From an uncultured Pelagibacteraceae bacterium (GTDB taxonomy: Bacteria > Pseudomonadota > Alphaproteobacteria > Pelagibacterales > Pelagibacteraceae), in contig CACAWY010000002.1 of NCBI GenBank assembly GCA_902536385.1, positions 62,001 to 126,000 on the forward strand: 64,000 nt of DNA, in the 5' to 3' direction. How positions within the stretch are numbered: position 1 is the stretch's first letter; each line of letters begins with the position of its first letter. A model generated the notes under the pieces. It did no database searches, was not told where the DNA came from, and worked only from the letters and a program-made list of their open reading frames with translations. The position numbers were made by a program, and so were the translations under genes. Positions 12,639-62,048 of this stretch are shown here, in pieces.

Positions 12639-13291
12639 ACAATAAAGAGAAATCCAAGATCATTATTAAGATCCTAAATAAAACTTATCCCAAAGTCCCA
12701 ATTCCATTAAATTATAAGAATACATTTACGCTTCTAATTTCTGTACTTCTTTCTGCACAGTGTACTGATGTAAATGTTAATAATGTTACAAAAAAAATTT
12801 ATCCAAAATACAACAAACCTGTACATTTTGTTAAGTTAGGCAGGAAAAGAATAGAAAAACTAATTAAAAAGATAGGAATTTTTAGGGTTAAAGCAAAAAG
12901 TATTTTTTATTTATCTAAAACTTTAATTGAAAAATATAATGGTAAAGTTCCTAGTACATATGAGGAACTCGAACAATTACCTGGCGTTGGACACAAGACT
13001 GCAGGAGTAGTCATGTCTCAAGGTTTTGGATACCCTGCTTTTCCAGTAGATACTCATATTCATAGACTTGCTCAAAGATGGGGACTAACAAATGGAAAAA
13101 ATGTTTTACAAACTGAGAAAGATTTAAAAACTATTTTTCCAAAAAGGCACTGGAATAGGCTTCATCTTCAAATAATTTGGTACGGTCGAGAATACTGTAA
13201 AGCAAGAGATTGCTATGGAATAACTTGTAAAATTTGTAAAAGCTGTTATCCAAATAGAAAAAAAAAACCATTAAAAACTCAAAAAGCTTGA
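12635..13291 (+). CDS. nth: Endonuclease III
   Basis: This is a base-excision repair DNA glycosylase/AP lyase for oxidised pyrimidines. The 218 residues include LLISVLLSAQCTDVNVN and the helix-hairpin-helix LEQLPGVGHKTAGVV with the catalytic lysine in GHKTA. The catalytic aspartate is in FPVDTHIHRL. Four cysteines of the iron-sulphur cluster lie near the C terminus (C-x6-C-x2-C-x5-C pattern in CKARDCYGITCKICKSC). The start is GTG, overlapping the dapB stop by 4 bases. Confidence 0.95.
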   Translation: MNNKEKSKIIIKILNKTYPKVPIPLNYKNTFTLLISVLLSAQCTDVNVNNVTKKIYPKYNKPVHFVKLGRKRIEKLIKKIGIFRVKAKSIFYLSKTLIEKYNGKVPSTYEELEQLPGVGHKTAGVVMSQGFGYPAFPVDTHIHRLAQRWGLTNGKNVLQTEKDLKTIFPKRHWNRLHLQIIWYGREYCKARDCYGITCKICKSCYPNRKKKPLKTQKA

Positions 13292-15437: not shown

Positions 15438-16084
15438 GATCTAGAACCAAAAATTGAGCTACCAATCCTAACAAATGTTGAGTTGTAGTTTATGGCTTCC
15501 AGGTAGTCTGCTGACATACCCATGCTAAGTTCTTTTAAAGATAAAGAATTATTTAAATCATCTAGTAATTTAAAATATTTTTTTGAATTCCCATCATTTG
15601 GGGGAATTACCATTAAACCAATAATATTTAAGTTCATTTCTCTTGTGCAATAAGTATAAAAAGCATCTACTTCTGTTGAAGAGACTCCTGATTTCTGTAA
15701 TTCATTACCAATGTTTATTTGAATAAAATACTTTAACGACTTATTAATATCTTTTTGACTTTTCGATAGAATATCTGCTAGCTTTTGACTGTCTAGTGAA
15801 TGAATATAATCAAATATTTCAACTGCGTTTTTTGCTTTATTGCTTTGAAGTTTGCCAACCATATGTAATTTGATTTTATTATTATATTTTTTTATTTCTC
15901 GCCATTTTGATAAAGCTTCTTGGACTTTATTTTCCCCAAAATGTTCGTGACCATAATCTAAAAGGGGTTTTATATGTTCGAATGGAAAAGTCTTGCTTAT
16001 AGCAACTATATTTACTTTTCTTTTGGGTTTTAAATTTTCTATATTAGATTTTATTTTATTAAATCTTTCTACTATTATGCTCAT
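15434..16084 (-). CDS. YggS-family pyridoxal phosphate homeostasis protein
   Basis: This is a cytoplasmic alanine-racemase-fold protein that binds pyridoxal phosphate without known catalysis and keeps PLP levels balanced. The 216 residues include VAISKTFPFEHIKPLLDYGHEHFGENKVQEA, with the PLP lysine in AISKT, then HMVGKLQSNKAKN and LSMGMSADYLEAI, all diagnostic of the family. Its start codon directly abuts the start of the divergent ThiE-like gene in CATATG (16082-16087), leaving no intergenic base. Confidence 0.93.
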   Translation of the reverse strand: MSIIVERFNKIKSNIENLKPKRKVNIVAISKTFPFEHIKPLLDYGHEHFGENKVQEALSKWREIKKYNNKIKLHMVGKLQSNKAKNAVEIFDYIHSLDSQKLADILSKSQKDINKSLKYFIQINIGNELQKSGVSSTEVDAFYTYCTREMNLNIIGLMVIPPNDGNSKKYFKLLDDLNNSLSLKELSMGMSADYLEAINYNSTFVRIGSSIFGSRS

Positions 16085-16657
16085 ATGTTTGCTCTAAAAA
16101 AAAAATATTTTATAATAATTGAAAATATCAAAGATATTGAATTAAGTAACATAAAAAAATTAGATAAATTTGTAATAATCTATAGAAATAATAAATTAAA
16201 GGATAAATTTTCAGATATATTAAAGTTTAGGAAAAAATGTAAAGAAAAAAGAATAGAATTATTTGTAGCAAATAATGTCAAACTTTTAAAAGATATAAAA
16301 GCAGATGGAATTTATATTTCCGCAAATAACTTTAGCTTAAACTATTCACAAATCAAGAAATCTAATTTTAAATTGATAGGATCAGCACATAATAATAAAG
16401 AGTTGACAATAAAAAAAAGACAAGGTTGTGCTGATATTTTTTTTTCAAGATTATTTAAGACAAATTACAAACATAAAATAGGATACCTTGGTTTAGTAAG
16501 ATTTAATCTATTGAATATAATTAATAAAAACAAACTCATACCGCTTGGAGGAATTCGTTTGTCAAATTTAAATAAAATGAAGTTAATTAATTGCTCAGGT
16601 TTTGTTATGCTCTCCGAACCAAAAAAAAAGCCGGCCATATTTGACCGGCTTTTTTAA
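16085..16657 (+). CDS. Thiamine-phosphate synthase-like (ThiE/TenI) protein, divergent
   Basis: A 190-residue TIM-barrel protein that resembles ThiE/TenI in overall pattern. It has ADGIYISANNF (the counterpart of ADGVHLGQ), LIGSAHN (IGxSxH), ADIFFSRLFKT and LIPLGGIR (the GGI phosphate-binding loop). Several ThiE substrate residues, such as the N-terminal RxK and the iNDr motif, are not recognisable. It may therefore be a diverged paralogue with altered activity. The final codons lie inside a hairpin terminator at 16624-16655. Confidence 0.6.
   Translation: MFALKKKYFIIIENIKDIELSNIKKLDKFVIIYRNNKLKDKFSDILKFRKKCKEKRIELFVANNVKLLKDIKADGIYISANNFSLNYSQIKKSNFKLIGSAHNNKELTIKKRQGCADIFFSRLFKTNYKHKIGYLGLVRFNLLNIINKNKLIPLGGIRLSNLNKMKLINCSGFVMLSEPKKKPAIFDRLF
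16624..16655. terminator. Bidirectional intrinsic terminator inside the ThiE-like coding end
   Basis: An 11-base-pair stem, AAAAAAGCCGG (16624-16634) with CCGGCTTTTTT (16645-16655), encloses a 10-base loop. A-rich and T-rich flanks make it work on either strand. It can end both the rightward ThiE-like transcript and the leftward porin transcript, whose stop codon is about 20 bases away. The right arm also encodes the last residues and stop of the ThiE-like protein. Confidence 0.85.
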
Positions 16658-21514: not shown

Positions 21515-22493
21515 AAGTTACTTAGTAGAGGGAAATATAAAGATTTTACAAAATAATATAAATCTTTTCTATGGTGAAAATTTAGGTTTAAAAAATGATC
21601 TCAAGTTTATAATAAAAAAAAATTATAAAGAATTTAAAATTATAAGGTTTTTCGAAGATGAGTTATTAAAAAATAATAACTTACTATTACAGGAAATAAG
21701 TAATGGATCTCTTTTTGAGGAGAAAAAAATTATATTTATAGAACAAGTATCTGATAAAATTGCAGATTTGATAGAAGGATTAGAAATCAAAAGTGATGAT
21801 GAAAAAATTTTTTTATTCTCTGAAGTTTTAGAAAAAAAATCCAAACTAAGGAATTTTTTTGAAAAATCTAAAAAACATGGAGTCTCCGCATGCTATCCAG
21901 ATAATGAAATAAGTATAAAAAGTATTATTCAGAAAAAGTTAAAAGAATTTCAAGGTTTATCGGCAACTAATATAAATCTAATATCAGATAATATTAATTT
22001 AGACAGAGTAAAACTGAATAATGAAATAGGTAAAATTCATCTTTTTTTTTCAAATAAAGTTTTAATAACTGAGAAATTAGAGAAACTTTTAAACACAAAA
22101 AACAATCAAGATTTCAATATTCTTAAAGACGAAGCACTACTAGGAAACAAATCGAAAACGAATAAATTGTTAAGCGATACAACTCTAGAAGAAGATAAAA
22201 ATATTTACTACTTAAATACCATTAATCAACGTCTAGGGAGGCTATTTCAAGTTAGTAAATCAAAACGAAAAAGTATTGAAATGGCAATAGAAGATTTAAA
22301 ACCGCCAATTTTTTGGAAAGACAAAAGAAATTTTTTGGAACAAGCAAAAAAATGGGATCAAAGTAAAATTAGGTCTTTATTAGAGAAAACCTATGATATA
22401 GAAGTTAAAATAAAATCTAATAACCAAATTAACAAAAATTTGCTTATCAAAAATTTGATAGTTGATATATGTGAGTCAGCTAATGCTTCGTAA
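21504..22493 (+). CDS. holA: DNA polymerase III delta subunit
   Basis: The delta subunit opens the beta sliding clamp within the clamp loader. The 329 residues match HolA in length and layout. There is an N-terminal region with NLFYGENLGLKND and later SLFEEKKIIFIEQV. A central helical part follows, and then the C-terminal PPIFWKDKRNFLEQAKKW segment typical of alphaproteobacterial delta. It overlaps lptE at the start. Its 3' end overlaps the convergent parB by 14 bases. Confidence 0.88.
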   Translation: MIYKSYLVEGNIKILQNNINLFYGENLGLKNDLKFIIKKNYKEFKIIRFFEDELLKNNNLLLQEISNGSLFEEKKIIFIEQVSDKIADLIEGLEIKSDDEKIFLFSEVLEKKSKLRNFFEKSKKHGVSACYPDNEISIKSIIQKKLKEFQGLSATNINLISDNINLDRVKLNNEIGKIHLFFSNKVLITEKLEKLLNTKNNQDFNILKDEALLGNKSKTNKLLSDTTLEEDKNIYYLNTINQRLGRLFQVSKSKRKSIEMAIEDLKPPIFWKDKRNFLEQAKKWDQSKIRSLLEKTYDIEVKIKSNNQINKNLLIKNLIVDICESANAS

Positions 22494-23334
22494 GGAGATC
22501 TGAAATTAATTCAAATTGATCTAAATCTTTATACTCTATTATAATTTTTCCAGAATTATTTTTTTTATTGGTGATATTTACTCTAAGTCCTAGTATTTTT
22601 TGTAATCTCTCCTGGGTTTTGAGAATATTTGAGTCGATTGTTTTTACAATTTTGCCTCCTTTTTTATTTCTAACTAGATACTCAACTTTTCTTGCACTGT
22701 AATTTTTAGAAACTATCTCTTCGGCTATAGAGGATGCATTTGAAATACCGATTAAAGGTCTAGCTTGTCCCGAAGTTAAAGTTCCTTCTTCTAACATTGC
22801 AACTACATCGCTTGGCAGAGTTAAAAGTCTCAAGGTGTTACTTATATGACTTCTGCTCTTCGACATTAATTTTGAAATGCTTTCATGATCATAATTGAAT
22901 TCTTCATTCAACCTTTTATAACCTTTTGCTTCTTCTATAGGGTTAAGATCATCTCTTTGAATATTCTCAACTATCGCAACCTCTAAAGATTCTACATCTG
23001 ATAAATCTAATATTGTAACTGGGATTTCGTGCAAACCTGCTCTTTGTGCAGCTAACCATCTTCTTTCACCCGCAACTATCTCATATTTCCCAGAATTTGA
23101 CTTATCAGGTCTTACTGCAATAGGCTGAATAATGCCGTTTTTCCTTATAGAATTTGCCAATTCTTCCAATTTTTCCTCTTTAAAATTTTGCCTTGGTTGA
23201 TAAGAATTTCGAGATAGATCTGAAATTGATACCGTATTAATTTTGTTTGCTACTTTTGTATTTTCTTTAGGGGATGTGTCTCCAAACAAAGCTGATAAGC
23301 CTCTTCCTAATCCCTTTTTCTTTCCAGTGCTCAT
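22480..23334 (-). CDS. parB: Chromosome-partitioning protein ParB
   Basis: ParB is the CTP-dependent clamp that loads at parS and spreads over origin-proximal DNA. The 284 residues show the GLGRGLSALFGD N-terminal motif, the NSYQPRQNF box and the CTPase motif VAGERRWLAAQRAG. IVENIQRDDLNPIEEA precedes the helix-turn-helix (SKLMSKSRSHISNTLRLL) that reads parS. It overlaps parA by 4 bases. Two parS-like palindromes lie about 1 kb upstream inside rsmG. Confidence 0.97.
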   Translation of the reverse strand: MSTGKKKGLGRGLSALFGDTSPKENTKVANKINTVSISDLSRNSYQPRQNFKEEKLEELANSIRKNGIIQPIAVRPDKSNSGKYEIVAGERRWLAAQRAGLHEIPVTILDLSDVESLEVAIVENIQRDDLNPIEEAKGYKRLNEEFNYDHESISKLMSKSRSHISNTLRLLTLPSDVVAMLEEGTLTSGQARPLIGISNASSIAEEIVSKNYSARKVEYLVRNKKGGKIVKTIDSNILKTQERLQKILGLRVNITNKKNNSGKIIIEYKDLDQFELISDLLTKH

Positions 23335-24128
23335 GCAGCACTCTCAACTTGGCTTTTTTTCAAAAATTCCTCAGCAAGTTTAAAATATGATTTACTACCA
23401 ACACAATTTTTATCATATACAACACATGGTAAACCGTGCGAAGGCGCCTCGGATAAGCGAACGTTTCTTTGAATTACAGTCTGATAAACTTTTTCTTTAA
23501 AATAATTTCGAGCTTCTCTGTCAACTTCGGAAGAAAGTTTATTTCTTTTGTCAAACATTGTCAGTAGAATACCTCTAATCTTTAGATTAGGATTTAGATT
23601 TTCTTTTATGCGATCTATTGTTTTTACAAGTTGTGTAATTCCCTCTAGAGCAAAAAATTCTGTTTGGAGTGGCACTAGTAATTCATCAGAGGCTACTAAT
23701 GCCATTATTGTAAGTAAGCTTAGAGATGGGGGGCAGTCTATGAAAATATTATCGTATTTTTTTAATAGACCATCTTTCTTTAAGTTCAATATTTCTTTCA
23801 ACACAAATGCTCTATTAGAGTCATTTGCAGTTTCTACTTCAAGACCAGAAAGATTTACATGAGAACCTATTAAATCTAGATTTTTAATATCAGTTTTCTG
23901 AATTATATTTTCAATACTAGTTTTTTTTATTAAAAGATTGTAAACATTTTTGTCTTCATCATTATTGTTTTTACCTAGCCCAGTTGTTGCATTACCCTGT
24001 GGATCCAAATCAATAACCAAATTATTTTGACCCATAATGGACAGTGAGGCAGCTAAGTTTATTACTGTAGTGGTTTTTCCCACGCCGCCTTTCTGATTTA
24101 TGATCGCTAGTGTTGAAGGTAATGACAT
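23331..24128 (-). CDS. parA: Chromosome-partitioning ATPase ParA
   Basis: ParA is a Walker-type ATPase that moves ParB-bound origins. The 265-residue protein begins with the deviant Walker A motif NQKGGVGKTTTVINLAASL (residues about 10-28). It also has DLDPQGNATTGLG and FIDCPPSLSLLTI (Walker B). No N-terminal DNA-binding extension is present, as in other chromosomal ParA/Soj proteins. Its start directly abuts the rsmG stop at 24129, and it overlaps parB by 4 bases. Confidence 0.97.
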   Translation of the reverse strand: MSLPSTLAIINQKGGVGKTTTVINLAASLSIMGQNNLVIDLDPQGNATTGLGKNNNDEDKNVYNLLIKKTSIENIIQKTDIKNLDLIGSHVNLSGLEVETANDSNRAFVLKEILNLKKDGLLKKYDNIFIDCPPSLSLLTIMALVASDELLVPLQTEFFALEGITQLVKTIDRIKENLNPNLKIRGILLTMFDKRNKLSSEVDREARNYFKEKVYQTVIQRNVRLSEAPSHGLPCVVYDKNCVGSKSYFKLAEEFLKKSQVESAA

Positions 24129-24746
24129 TTATTTGTTAATCTCCATTAAAATTATTTTTGAATCTTTATTTGTCATGCTGCTTTCTAATTTATAAGGGTA
24201 TTTTTTTGTTTTAAAAGAATTTTTTATTTCTTCCTGTGCATTTTGACCTTTTAGAATCATTAGTTTATGTGGCTTTTTAGCAATTTCACGTGAAACTTGT
24301 ATTATTTGATCTAATTTTTTAAAAGCCCTGCAGATTATAATCTCGGAATCTATAACTTCATCTCTGATATCTCCTAAAACCTCTGCATTTAAACTCAATT
24401 CCTTAATTGCACCTATTAAGAACCTTCTTTTTACTGGTGATTTTTCATATAATTTCACGTGAAAGGCCTTATTTTTATTGAATATTTCTACTACGAGACC
24501 CGGAAATCCTGCTCCAGTGCCAAGATCGGCCATGGAACTAACGTTAAAATCAATAAACTTAACCAATTGAGCTGAGTCAAGTACATGTCTATGCCAAATT
24601 TGACTCTCTGTGCTTTTGGCAATTAAATTATAATTTTGATTTTCTTTTAGAACTAGATTTGTGAACTTTTTAAGCTTTTCAATTGAATGATCACTAAAAT
24701 TAAGACTCTTTTTGAGAATATTTATGACTTCAAGCTGCTGCATCAA
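24129..24746 (-). CDS. rsmG: 16S rRNA (guanine-527-N7)-methyltransferase
   Basis: RsmG methylates N7 of G527 in 16S rRNA with SAM. The 205 residues contain [23 protein letters not shown] and [17 protein letters not shown], the SAM-binding signature of GidB, and a normal length. It overlaps mnmG by 4 bases and is followed immediately by parA. The coding sequence carries two parS-like palindromes at 24282-24297 and 24451-24466. Confidence 0.95.
24282..24297. other. parS-like ParB-binding site 1
   Basis: AATTTCACGTGAAACT contains the perfect 12-base palindrome TTTCACGTGAAA. It matches the general bacterial parS consensus TGTTTCACGTGAAACA at 13 of 16 positions. It lies inside rsmG, about 150 bases upstream of parA. 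Confidence 0.8.
24451..24466. other. parS-like ParB-binding site 2
   Basis: AATTTCACGTGAAAGG repeats the same perfect TTTCACGTGAAA core 169 bases from the first site and still inside rsmG. It matches 12 of 16 parS consensus positions. Two copies of a 12-base GC-containing palindrome in one AT-rich gene are very unlikely by chance. Confidence 0.75.
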
Positions 24747-41523: not shown

Positions 41524-42104
41524 TTTTTATATTGTTTAACATAGTTGATAATATCTTTTATTGGTAAACCCATAATTGAATCACGATCTCCCTTAATATA
41601 TTCAAATAATTCCATTCCGTCGGCTTCTACCTGATAAACGCCATATGAAAGTAATATTTCTGTTTTTATTTTTCCGAGATATTTTAAAAGCTGTTTTTCA
41701 TTAAAATTTTTCATCTTTAGTTCTGAAGTATCTGTATGATTCCATATCATAGAACCATTCAATGAAAAACAACATGAACTTATTAAATAATGTTTAGAAT
41801 TATTTAGCTTTTTAAGGATTTCGAAAGCTTCTTCTCGAGATTTAGGTTTGTTAATAAGTTCATTGTCTAGAGAAATCACACTGTCAGCACCCAAAACTAA
41901 AATATTAGGATTATTTTTACTTACTTTTACAGATTTTACTTCTGCCAGATTTTTTGAAATTAATTTAGGACTAGCTCCTTCTGCTAAAAGAGAATTTTTT
42001 ATTTCGTCCTCGTCAACATTAGAAAATACCACTTCGGCATCGATATTGTAATTGTCCAAAATCTTTTTTCTCACTCCACTTTTTGAAGCTAAAATAATCT
42101 TCAT
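41520..42104 (-). CDS. maf: Maf/Ham1-like nucleotide pyrophosphatase
   Basis: Maf proteins hydrolyse modified or canonical nucleoside triphosphates and act as house-cleaning enzymes. The 194 residues begin IILASKSGVRKKIL, the Maf signature. LVLGADSVISLDNELINKPKSREEA holds the catalytic aspartate, and KGDRDSIMGLPI is near the end. It overlaps aroE and ppsR by 4 bases each. Confidence 0.93.
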   Translation of the reverse strand: MKIILASKSGVRKKILDNYNIDAEVVFSNVDEDEIKNSLLAEGASPKLISKNLAEVKSVKVSKNNPNILVLGADSVISLDNELINKPKSREEAFEILKKLNNSKHYLISSCCFSLNGSMIWNHTDTSELKMKNFNEKQLLKYLGKIKTEILLSYGVYQVEADGMELFEYIKGDRDSIMGLPIKDIINYVKQYKK

Positions 42105-42919
42105 TTTTTTTTCTTTATTTCAATAATCTTAAGTATAGAGGCAGCGGTTTCTTCCACCGATCTTCTTGTGACGTCAATGATTGGCCAATTATTTTTTTTA
42201 AAGAGCTTCTTGGAGTCATCTACTTCTTTCTTAATATGTTCCACATCAGTGTATTCTTTTAATTTCCGATCTAACATGATTGCGACTCTGTTTCTTCTTA
42301 TGTCAGCTAATCTTTCAGGATCTGCAATAAGTCCAATAACACAAACTTTTTTATTTAGACTTAAGTCAGATGGCAATACTTGATCTAACACTAAAGGAAT
42401 ATTTATTGTTTTATAGCCTCTATTGGCTAAGTAAATTGATGTTGGTGTTTTACTAGTTCTGCTTACTCCTAATAAAACTACATCTGCGTTATTTATATCG
42501 TCTACTTTTTTTCCATCATCATGTGACATTGTAAATTGTATTGCCTCAATTCTCTTATAATAGTCATCATCCAAAACATGTTGAGCACTTGGTTTGTGAA
42601 TAGCTTTTTGATTAAGTAATTTCGAAAAACTTAATATCAGATTTCCTAATATTCCAAAACAAGGGACGTTATTTTTTCCACTCTGATTGGCAATATATTT
42701 AGCAAGTTTAGTCTCGACTATTGTATAAAGAATTAGAGAATTTTCCATTGCTAGACATTCTTTAATTATTTTATCTATTTGTTGTTCTGTTCTAACAAAA
42801 GCAAACTCCTTTTTTTCATATTCAAAATTAGAAAATTGTGATTTTAAAGAAAGAAAAATTCTATCTAAGGTTTCACCTGTCGAGTCAGACACAAGATATA
42901 CATTGTATTTTTGGTTCAT
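42101..42919 (-). CDS. Pyruvate,phosphate dikinase / PEP synthase regulatory kinase-pyrophosphorylase (DUF299)
   Basis: A bifunctional regulator that phosphorylates and dephosphorylates PEP synthase or pyruvate phosphate dikinase. The 272-residue protein contains YLVSDSTGETLDRI, the P-loop-like GVSRTSKTPTSIYLANRGYKTINIP and GLIADPERLADIRRNR. It is the first gene of the leftward maf-aroE-coaE-dnaQ operon. In Caulobacter the same gene flanks the replication origin opposite hemE, as it does here. Confidence 0.93.
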   Translation of the reverse strand: MNQKYNVYLVSDSTGETLDRIFLSLKSQFSNFEYEKKEFAFVRTEQQIDKIIKECLAMENSLILYTIVETKLAKYIANQSGKNNVPCFGILGNLILSFSKLLNQKAIHKPSAQHVLDDDYYKRIEAIQFTMSHDDGKKVDDINNADVVLLGVSRTSKTPTSIYLANRGYKTINIPLVLDQVLPSDLSLNKKVCVIGLIADPERLADIRRNRVAIMLDRKLKEYTDVEHIKKEVDDSKKLFKKNNWPIIDVTRRSVEETAASILKIIEIKKKK

Positions 42920-43021
42920 ATGTTTGTTAATAAATAATTAATAAATCGTTTTTTTCACCTTAAAAAAAAAAATAGAGAAAAAAATTAACATTAATTAACA
43001 ATATTTAAACATTTTATTGAA

Positions 43022-43053
43022 TGTTTATAATGTTGTTTTACTAATGTTTATAA
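43022..43053 (+). repeat. TGTTTATAA direct repeats (possible DnaA boxes)
   Basis: Two identical TGTTTATAA copies begin at 43022 and 43045, 23 bases apart, about two helical turns. Both sit in the extended context AATGTTTATAA. They match the DnaA consensus in 7 of 9 positions. Confidence 0.4.
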
Positions 43054-43107
43054 AAGTAAAAAAGACTGTAAAACAAAGCTTTTTTTCATAAATTATTAAT
43101 CTTACAA

Positions 43108-43135
43108 TGTATAAAAGATGTATAAAAAGTTGTAT
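43108..43135 (+). repeat. TGTAT iterons with 11-12 base spacing
   Basis: TGTATAAAAGA, TGTATAAAAAG and TGTATGACC start at 43108, 43119 and 43131. The helical phasing is typical of protein-binding iterons and sits in the candidate origin about 55-80 bases before hemE. Confidence 0.4.
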
Positions 43136-43188
43136 GACCATTAAACAGGCCCAACTATAAGAACAAAAGTTAAAATTATTAAATATAT

Positions 43189-44199
43189 ATGAGTAACATT
43201 AAAAATATCTTGTTAAAAAGAGTTCCTTGTAAATCTGTATGGTTTATGAGACAAGCAGGAAGATATCTACCGGAATTTCAGAAAATACGATCTAAAAATC
43301 AAAACTTTATCAATCTTTGTTTAAATAGCGAACTTAGTTCTGAAATCACAATGCAACCAATTAAGAGATTTGATCTTGACTCAGCAATAATTTTTTCTGA
43401 CATTTTAATGACTCCATACGCGTTAGGTCAAAAAGTATCTTTCACTAAAAATCAAGGGCCTATTTTGAGTGAATTCGATCTTAGAATATTTCTCCAAAAT
43501 AATGAAAAAGAATTTTCCAAAAAACTAGAACCAATTTACAAAGCAATCAAAATTACAAGAAAAAATCTAACCAATGAAAAGTCTTTAATTTGCTTTGTAG
43601 GAGCACCATGGACACTATTAGTTTACATGCTTGGCATTAGAAAAGATAAAAAGATGGTTGATTTAGATAAACTTAATAATTTTGATAATAAATTAGATCA
43701 AATCATTAATGTATTAGTAAAATTTTTATGTATTCATATAAAAAATCAAATCGAAGCAGGAGCTGACGTTGTTCAAATATTTGACTCTTGGGCAGGACTG
43801 ATTCCTCCAGATAAAATTAATAAATATTGTTTTGTACCAAACACCAAAATAATTCAATTTTGCAAAAAAAGAAACATACCTAATATTTGTTTTCCAAAAG
43901 GCATTAAAGAAAAATTTAAAGATTTTAATGATTTAGTTAAACCAGATGGATTAAATTTAGACCCTGATATAGATCCCTTATGGGCAAAGAAAAATCTGAA
44001 AGATGTAGTATTACAAGGTGGTCTTGATCCTAAAGTATTATTAAAGTCAGAACAGGAAATGATTATAGGAGCGACGAAATACATTTCGGCTTTTAAAGAT
44101 ATTCCTTATATTTTTAATCTAGGACATGGGTTACTTCCAGAAACAGATCCTGATAAAGTGTTTAAATTAGTAAAATTTTATAGGAATTTTCATGGATAA
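43189..44199 (+). CDS. hemE: Uroporphyrinogen decarboxylase
   Basis: HemE decarboxylates uroporphyrinogen III to coproporphyrinogen III in haem synthesis. The 336-residue TIM barrel has VWFMRQAGRYLPEFQKIR, with the substrate-binding arginines, and FCVGAPWTLLVYML-like LICFVGAPWTLL. VVQIFDSWAGLI and FNLGHGLLPETDPDKV lie further along. It overlaps hemH by 8 bases and starts the hemE-hemH-hemJ group flanking the candidate origin. Confidence 0.97.
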   Translation: MSNIKNILLKRVPCKSVWFMRQAGRYLPEFQKIRSKNQNFINLCLNSELSSEITMQPIKRFDLDSAIIFSDILMTPYALGQKVSFTKNQGPILSEFDLRIFLQNNEKEFSKKLEPIYKAIKITRKNLTNEKSLICFVGAPWTLLVYMLGIRKDKKMVDLDKLNNFDNKLDQIINVLVKFLCIHIKNQIEAGADVVQIFDSWAGLIPPDKINKYCFVPNTKIIQFCKKRNIPNICFPKGIKEKFKDFNDLVKPDGLNLDPDIDPLWAKKNLKDVVLQGGLDPKVLLKSEQEMIIGATKYISAFKDIPYIFNLGHGLLPETDPDKVFKLVKFYRNFHG

Positions 44200-61752: not shown

Positions 61753-62048
61753 TGAAATCTATACTTATTCTTTTTGATAATGTAGTAAATCTTTACATTT
61801 GGGTTCTGATAATCCATGTAATATTTAGCTGGTTAGTAGCTTTCAATGTTTTAAATACAAGCAATAGATTCGTTTATTCTGTATTAGATGTTTCTTACAA
61901 ACTCACGGCACCACCATTAAATTTTATAAGAAAATTTTTGCCTAATCTTGGGTCAATAGATATTTCACCAGTTGTATTAATATTAGGCTTAATTTTTTTT
62001 AGGAATTTAGTTTTTGAAATGTTTGCACCAGGATTATTTTTAAGATGA
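61752..62048 (+). CDS. YggT family membrane protein
   Basis: A 98-residue protein with two main hydrophobic segments (about 8-30 and 73-95). The family-typical pattern is IFSWLVAFNVLNTSNRF, then PLNFIRKFLPNLGSIDISPVVLILGL. YggT proteins are linked to osmotic tolerance and cell-envelope functions, but their activity is unclear. It sits in a chain of overlaps between mscS (1 base) and folD (4 bases). Confidence 0.9.
   Translation: MKSILILFDNVVNLYIWVLIIHVIFSWLVAFNVLNTSNRFVYSVLDVSYKLTAPPLNFIRKFLPNLGSIDISPVVLILGLIFFRNLVFEMFAPGLFLR

Follow-up and report, generated by a model that had tools for sequence, protein, structure and literature searches.

A predicted hemE-type chromosomal replication origin between ppsR and hemE in SAR11 bacteria

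Location and composition of the intergenic region

We analysed a 64-kb stretch of DNA (positions 62001–126000 of contig 2, hereafter the window) from a draft genome of 974 kb and 81.5% completeness that probably belongs to SAR11 subclade II. Within it the genes ppsR (minus strand) and hemE (plus strand) diverge, with their starts on either side of an intergenic gap. These two genes were named by Pfam matches, whereas the names of the other neighbours, maf-aroE-coaE-dnaQ to the left of the gap and hemH-hemJ-rho to the right, come from reading the proteins.

42101–42919, minus strand: ppsR (DUF299/COG1806), PF03618, E 4e-90
42920–43188, no strand: ppsR-hemE intergenic gap, candidate oriC, 269 bp, 17.1% G+C
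43189–44199, plus strand: hemE, PF01208, E 6e-82

A preliminary description of this DNA had placed a probable chromosomal origin here, between divergent ppsR and hemE genes with the same outer neighbours, and both its coordinates and its genes are correct. It had also called the gap nearly pure A/T, in agreement with the G+C content that we measured. Stretches of 269 bp at 17.1% G+C or below occur at only two places in the window, the gap and 15968–16374, the sole other stretch that is equally G+C-poor. An origin between hemE and COG1806 is described as experimentally known in Caulobacter and as proposed in Rickettsia (PMC1914354), which bears out the earlier likening of this gene pair to those two origins. 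The gap is intergenic between hemE and COG1806 (ppsR), the position that marks an alphaproteobacterial oriC of the hemE type.

In what follows, g1 is the genus of the window's own genome, g5 to g9 are lineages of the same family and f2 is a sister family. The named relatives that were found via ppsR belong to SAR11.

Repeats and DnaA-box-like sites in the gap

The repeat TGTTTATAA, which had been reported to occur twice, is found at 43022–43030 and 43045–43053, 23 bp apart and at positions conserved in relatives. On the other strand both copies read as DnaA boxes with one mismatch (TTATAAACA). The gap has no match to the canonical box TTWTNCACA, as the preliminary description had stated. In the relaxed form TTWTNNACA it has five sites, all on the minus strand, compared with 0.97 in shuffles, of which 1 in 2000 reached five, and no other 269-bp stretch of the window contains as many. 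Three of the five are one mismatch from TTATNCACA, mostly by a change of C6 to A. On a stricter count (one mismatch to TTATNCACA) the gap ties with a place at 12751, where three further DnaA-box-like sites with one mismatch cluster within 12751–13050 of the window. The cluster of DnaA boxes that belongs to a hemE-type oriC is present in the gap in relaxed form. Its members are listed here with the number of distinct own-genus gaps that carry the strict form (TGTNNAWAA for the first).

42925–42933, minus strand: DnaA-box-like site TTATTAACA (TGTTAATAA on the plus strand), 65/92
42985–43011, plus strand: three TAACA-type half-boxes (TTAACA, TTAACA, TAAACA), 10–11 bp apart, opposite in orientation to the other boxes
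43022–43030, minus strand: DnaA-box-like site TTATAAACA, 52/92
43045–43053, minus strand: DnaA-box-like site TTATAAACA, 68/92
43108–43116, minus strand: weak DnaA-box-like site TTTTATACA, 50/92
43119–43127, minus strand: weak DnaA-box-like site TTTTATACA, 26/92, elsewhere mostly TGTATAAAT

The half-boxes are conserved in the own-genus gaps as TAACA or TCACA (81/92) and TTAACA (73/92), and the third retains ACA in 89/92. TGTAT occurs three times, at 43108, 43119 and 43131, with spacings of 11 and 12 bp. These copies had been described as three phased iterons whose conservation in relatives should be checked. All three are there. Relatives keep the first two as TGTATAAA but mostly have TTATAT in place of the third, which is therefore not an iteron.

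The hemE-side element

Between the boxes and hemE we identified a short conserved element followed by A/T-rich DNA.

43145–43157, plus strand: conserved element ACA-GG-CCC-AA-CTA, a candidate box end, G+C cluster and start of degenerate DnaA-trios
43158–43188, plus strand: A/T-rich stretch up to the hemE start, a candidate unwinding element

The pattern ACANNNCCTA is found in 75 of 94 own-genus gaps, compared with 1.2 in shuffles; the window's copy, ACAGGCCCAA, is among those that do not match. The arrangement recalls the basal unwinding system (BUS) of Bacillus subtilis, which calls for three or more trios no further than 16 bp from a DnaA box, and we searched for its trios in several ways. 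ACA N0-16 CTA[CAT]TA is present in 59/94 gaps (11.5 when shuffled), whereas runs of four trios, present in 34/94 gaps (21.4) and in 3/20 in f2 (5.0), show little or no excess over shuffles; it is the shorter two-triplet pattern that is enriched. With several trio patterns tried on related sequences, this enrichment is only a lead. Some relatives have a clear version of the element and the window a degenerate one, and the tests are mixed, so unwinding beside hemE is put forward as a proposal.

Two other features were considered as marks of an origin. By melting energy neither the gap nor its A/T-rich stretch beside hemE stands out: none of the 12 least stable 50-bp segments of the window falls in the gap, and other stretches melt more easily. 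CtrA sites (TTAA-N7-TTAA) are patchy across lineages, with 0.80 compared with 0.23 in shuffles in the genus and 0 in g9, g5, g7 and f2, and one published survey reports that a ctrA orthologue was not found in Pelagibacter (PMC2877005).

Conservation and synteny among relatives

We found hemE in 55 of 61 genomes, and 30 own-genus loci were compared; four own-genus hemE matches lie outside these 30, and one of them, in G033, has both ppsR and hemE. The order ppsR-gap-hemE is present in 28 of the 30 loci, the other two of which begin inside hemE at a contig end. It is likewise present in 78 of the 80 named SAR11 loci found with ppsR, where the remaining two stop at a contig end. The gap sets exclude L024 and L028, which are cut by a contig end, as well as L038 and L080, whose contigs end before any hemE is reached. 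The own-genus and named sets overlap, and merging 14 identical gaps leaves 92 distinct gaps among 106. All 19 loci fetched from g6, g7, g8, g9 and two further g1 genomes have the same order. In the complete g8 genome G202 (L226, L229, L272), hemE is split into two parts, one of which contains stops; this is either a pseudogene or a sequencing error.

Among the 28 own-genus loci, mean pairwise identity is 62.6% in the gap compared with 41.9% and 38.3% at the four-fold sites of hemE and ppsR, respectively, random sequence being at about 35%. The gap exceeds both sets of four-fold sites in 374 of 378 pairs. The conserved blocks run from TGTTAATAA near ppsR through the three TAACA half-boxes, TGTTnATAA, TGTTTATAA, two copies of TGTATAAA and TTATAT to ACAnnnCCTA near hemE.

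The gap outlives its neighbours: ppsR was lost in f2, and hemE departed in g5. PF03618 is present in 0 of 24 f2 genomes, compared with 30 of 37 own-genus genomes, and all 20 f2 loci fetched have the order maf-gap-hemE, with boxes and a gap of about 271–284 bp. Both complete g5 genomes have ppsR-gap-rho with a gap of 353 bp that keeps ACANNNCCTA, and their hemE is far away (a weaker match, perhaps a different gene). In these two genomes (L270, L271; G073, G076) rho follows the gap directly where hemE is gone, and hemH and hemJ were not found there.

Each of two divergent genes needs one promoter or more in the region between their starts, and the hemE-side element could belong to one of these. 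The gap might accordingly be only a shared promoter region, conserved for the regulation of ppsR and hemE. Its persistence when either neighbour is lost argues against a mere promoter region, since gap and boxes are kept without ppsR (20/20 f2 loci) and with hemE moved away (2/2 in g5), where the hemE-side ACANNNCCTA is retained next to rho. Moreover, conservation extends across the entire gap and includes several blocks of DnaA-box type. We therefore regard the promoter reading as very improbable.

DnaA-box enrichment and the DnaA signature loop

DnaA-box sites that differ from TTATNCACA at no more than one position are enriched about 4–6-fold over dinucleotide shuffles in all seven lineages, four of which are represented by only 2–3 sequences. 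The values per gap are as follows.

g1 (own genus): 3.57 observed, 0.79 shuffled
g9: 4.50 observed, 0.80 shuffled
g6: 4.00 observed, 0.89 shuffled
g5: 3.50 observed, 0.95 shuffled
g7: 3.50 observed, 0.90 shuffled
g8: 4.67 observed, 0.73 shuffled
f2 (sister family): 2.80 observed, 0.72 shuffled

The preliminary description had guessed that a SAR11 origin might use relaxed boxes and had proposed to look for conserved repeats across SAR11 genomes; boxes with one mismatch are indeed conserved across the relatives. These values also bear on whether the gap could be an A/T-rich spacer in which the repeats are chance matches. The count of TGTTTATAA in the window is unremarkable (3 in 64 kb, with 2.9 expected) and, as noted, other stretches melt more easily, both of which would suit a spacer. 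However, box enrichment in seven lineages and a gap identity well above that of four-fold sites contradict it, and a spacer is hardly credible, the least probable of the readings considered.

The mean number of exact TTATNCACA sites per gap is 0.03 in the genus, 0.70 in g6 and 0.25 in f2. The usual change in the window's family is from TTATNCACA to TTATNAACA. A at position 6, found in 191 genus sites within one mismatch of TTATNCACA, is by far the commonest change in the genus; elsewhere in the family it is either the leading change or level with another. In f2, A at position 1 is the most frequent. We aligned the DnaA signature loop to domain IV of E. coli DnaA (1j1v). It reads FGGRDHTT in f2 and begins FANR in g1 and g9, FSNR in g6, FSGR in g7 and FTGR in g5 and g8, the RDHTT core being unchanged across lineages. 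The otherwise constant GG of FGGRDHTT is SG, TG, AN or SN in the window's family (L206–L225; dnaA loci L172–L185).

Tight co-variation of loop and box finds no support within the family, as A6 dominates with an SGR, TGR, ANR or SNR loop alike. Box and loop thus do not co-vary within the family, and their co-evolution is a conjecture drawn from one transition between families, the only such transition visible; A/T drift alone could account for the base change. It is conceivable, and in our view rather doubtful, that SAR11 has a co-evolved, CtrA-free minimal origin in which a shifted DnaA-box dialect (position 6 of TTATNCACA mostly A, with a change in the DnaA loop) is combined with the absence of CtrA control and with flanks of which either is replaceable.

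Position relative to parS and dnaA

The window contains a complete parAB-rsmG cluster at 22480–24746, with a parS-like palindrome in rsmG, directly upstream of parA.

22480–23334, minus strand: parB (ParB_N, HTH_ParB, ParB_C)
23331–24128, minus strand: parA (AAA_31, E 3e-59)
24129–24746, minus strand: rsmG (gidB), PF02527, E 1e-34
24282–24297, plus strand: parS-like palindrome AATTTCACGTGAAACT, inside rsmG, 18.6 kb from the gap

The palindrome has one mismatch to GTTTCACGTGAAAC and is the sole such match in the 974-kb draft, where a reversed-pattern control gave 0; judged from the window alone it could be chance, with 0.44 expected at three mismatches. A parS match was found in 19 of 20 genome entries, G069 having none. 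As G036 and G071 stand for one genome, the 19 matches represent 18 distinct genomes, in 17 of which parS is 8–20 kb from the gap (33 kb in G208). In the complete genomes G074, G075, G077, G079, G080, G085 and G202 a parS with 0–1 mismatch lies at 7–19 kb from the gap; for both complete g5 genomes the distance is 19–20 kb. Among the matches listed, G075, G080 and G085 have further one-mismatch sites far from the gap. A parS close by, one of the features that identify an oriC, is therefore found here. As had been observed, dnaA is outside the window, and we located it 71.6 kb to the left of the gap. The distance is 60–74 kb in 11 of 12 genomes, those with dnaA and the gap on the same contig.

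GC skew and gene orientation

Two long contigs (G061, G037) and two complete genomes (G074, G077) were sampled in stretches. The preliminary description had suggested looking for a minimum of cumulative GC skew at the gap. In G061 and G077 the minimum is close to the gap, at about 14 kb and about 51 kb respectively, and in G037 and G074 it is a broad one surrounding the gap, at 82 kb and 128 kb, but much of the signal is gene orientation. With the coding strand modelled, third-position GC skew gives z values of −3.7 in G061 (the wrong sign), −0.8 in G037 (nil), +2.0 in G074 (weak) and +5.1 in G077 (the right sign). Once corrected for coding, GC skew agrees with an origin at the gap in two of the four sampled genomes, and in the other two the signal vanishes or changes sign. 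Among box clusters in the same samples, the gap comes first in G074 and G037, is equalled by another place in G077 and is outside the top six in G061.

Gene orientation in G077 puts the origin exactly at the gap, which gives the best co-directional coding (0.668, rank 1 of 117), dnaA being at rank 14. In G074 the gap has 0.621 (rank 2 of 120) and dnaA 0.625 (rank 1). The G074 ranking would fit a true origin at dnaA, as annotation practice assumes, the gap being a relic of an ancestral origin or a site for DnaA titration. Some published work sets SAR11 genomes or origins by dnaA (PMC12421898; for the general method, PMC2031905), and skew cannot separate dnaA from the gap. However, the 3.2-kb dnaA locus of the window's genome has no box cluster, with at most one box per 300 bp, and on this ground an origin at dnaA was rejected. 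The parS site, 8–20 kb from the gap, is in the window on the dnaA side yet still 53 kb from dnaA, and a relic would not be expected to stay so conserved. Together with the G077 ranking, these observations make an origin at dnaA slightly less probable still than a mere promoter region.

A model for the SAR11 origin

From conservation, box enrichment, synteny, the position of parS and the co-directionality of genes we infer that the gap at 42920–43188 is the oriC of the SAR11 chromosome, with a probability of roughly nine in ten. The probable origin of the preliminary description is thus supported as a prediction, with parAB near the gap and the persistence of the gap after loss of a neighbour adding to the case. 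DnaA would bind the divergent box cluster of five TTWTNNACA sites, of which three differ from TTATNCACA at one position, and the phased plus-strand TAACA half-boxes may aid the minus-strand boxes in seeding a DnaA oligomer. The oligomer would extend over the ACA-GG-CC-CTA element towards hemE and open the A/T-rich DNA in a BUS-like manner. Helicase would then be loaded and two forks would depart, one through ppsR and the other through hemE, and segregation of the copies would fall to ParB at parS, 18.6 kb from the gap.

SAR11 bacteria are among the most abundant marine bacterial groups, and their growth at sea is estimated from the read depth at origin and terminus. Metagenomic coverage of SAR11 is reported to have one high origin and one low terminus (PMC9589681), and the growth tool GRiD is described as taking dnaA as a stand-in for the origin (PMC7852909). 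The gap, 60–74 kb from dnaA in the genomes measured, differs from this stand-in, and a precise site would allow read-depth profiles to be anchored and put to the test. It also offers a defined 270-bp element for studying replication control in a streamlined alphaproteobacterium without CtrA. A search of the literature by title gave no published oriC position for SAR11, although predictions are likely to exist in databases such as DoriC, and the oriC of HTCC1062 is stated to have been manually identified (PMC4033161).

Comparison with known origins

We class the gap as a variant of the hemE-type origin, in the same place, with relaxed boxes, no evident CtrA control and replaceable flanks. The origin of Caulobacter crescentus (Cori) is described as having the same flanking pair, an A/T-rich intergenic gap and DnaA boxes (PMC1914354). 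However, five CtrA sites are reported in Cori, whereas Pelagibacter is reported to be without ctrA (PMC2877005). In addition, the boxes of the gap are mostly TTATNAACA, and its length of 269 bp falls short of the over 400 bp given for Cori (PMC1914354). The proposed origin of Rickettsia, also between hemE and COG1806, is 383–395 bp among the rows listed, with 82–83% A+T (PMC1914354), so that its flanks and composition are almost those of the gap. In contrast, the gap in the window is shorter and lacks a canonical box, and one flank has been lost in some SAR11 relatives.

On the hemE side, a box-like ACA, a small G+C cluster, CTA-type triplets and A/T-rich DNA follow one another in an order resembling that described for the BUS of B. 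subtilis oriC (PMC8287927, PMC10721633). In comparison, the copy in the window is degenerate, and two motif tests gave little or no excess over shuffles. The BUS-like order is clearest in f2, where L114 has CTACTACTACTA.
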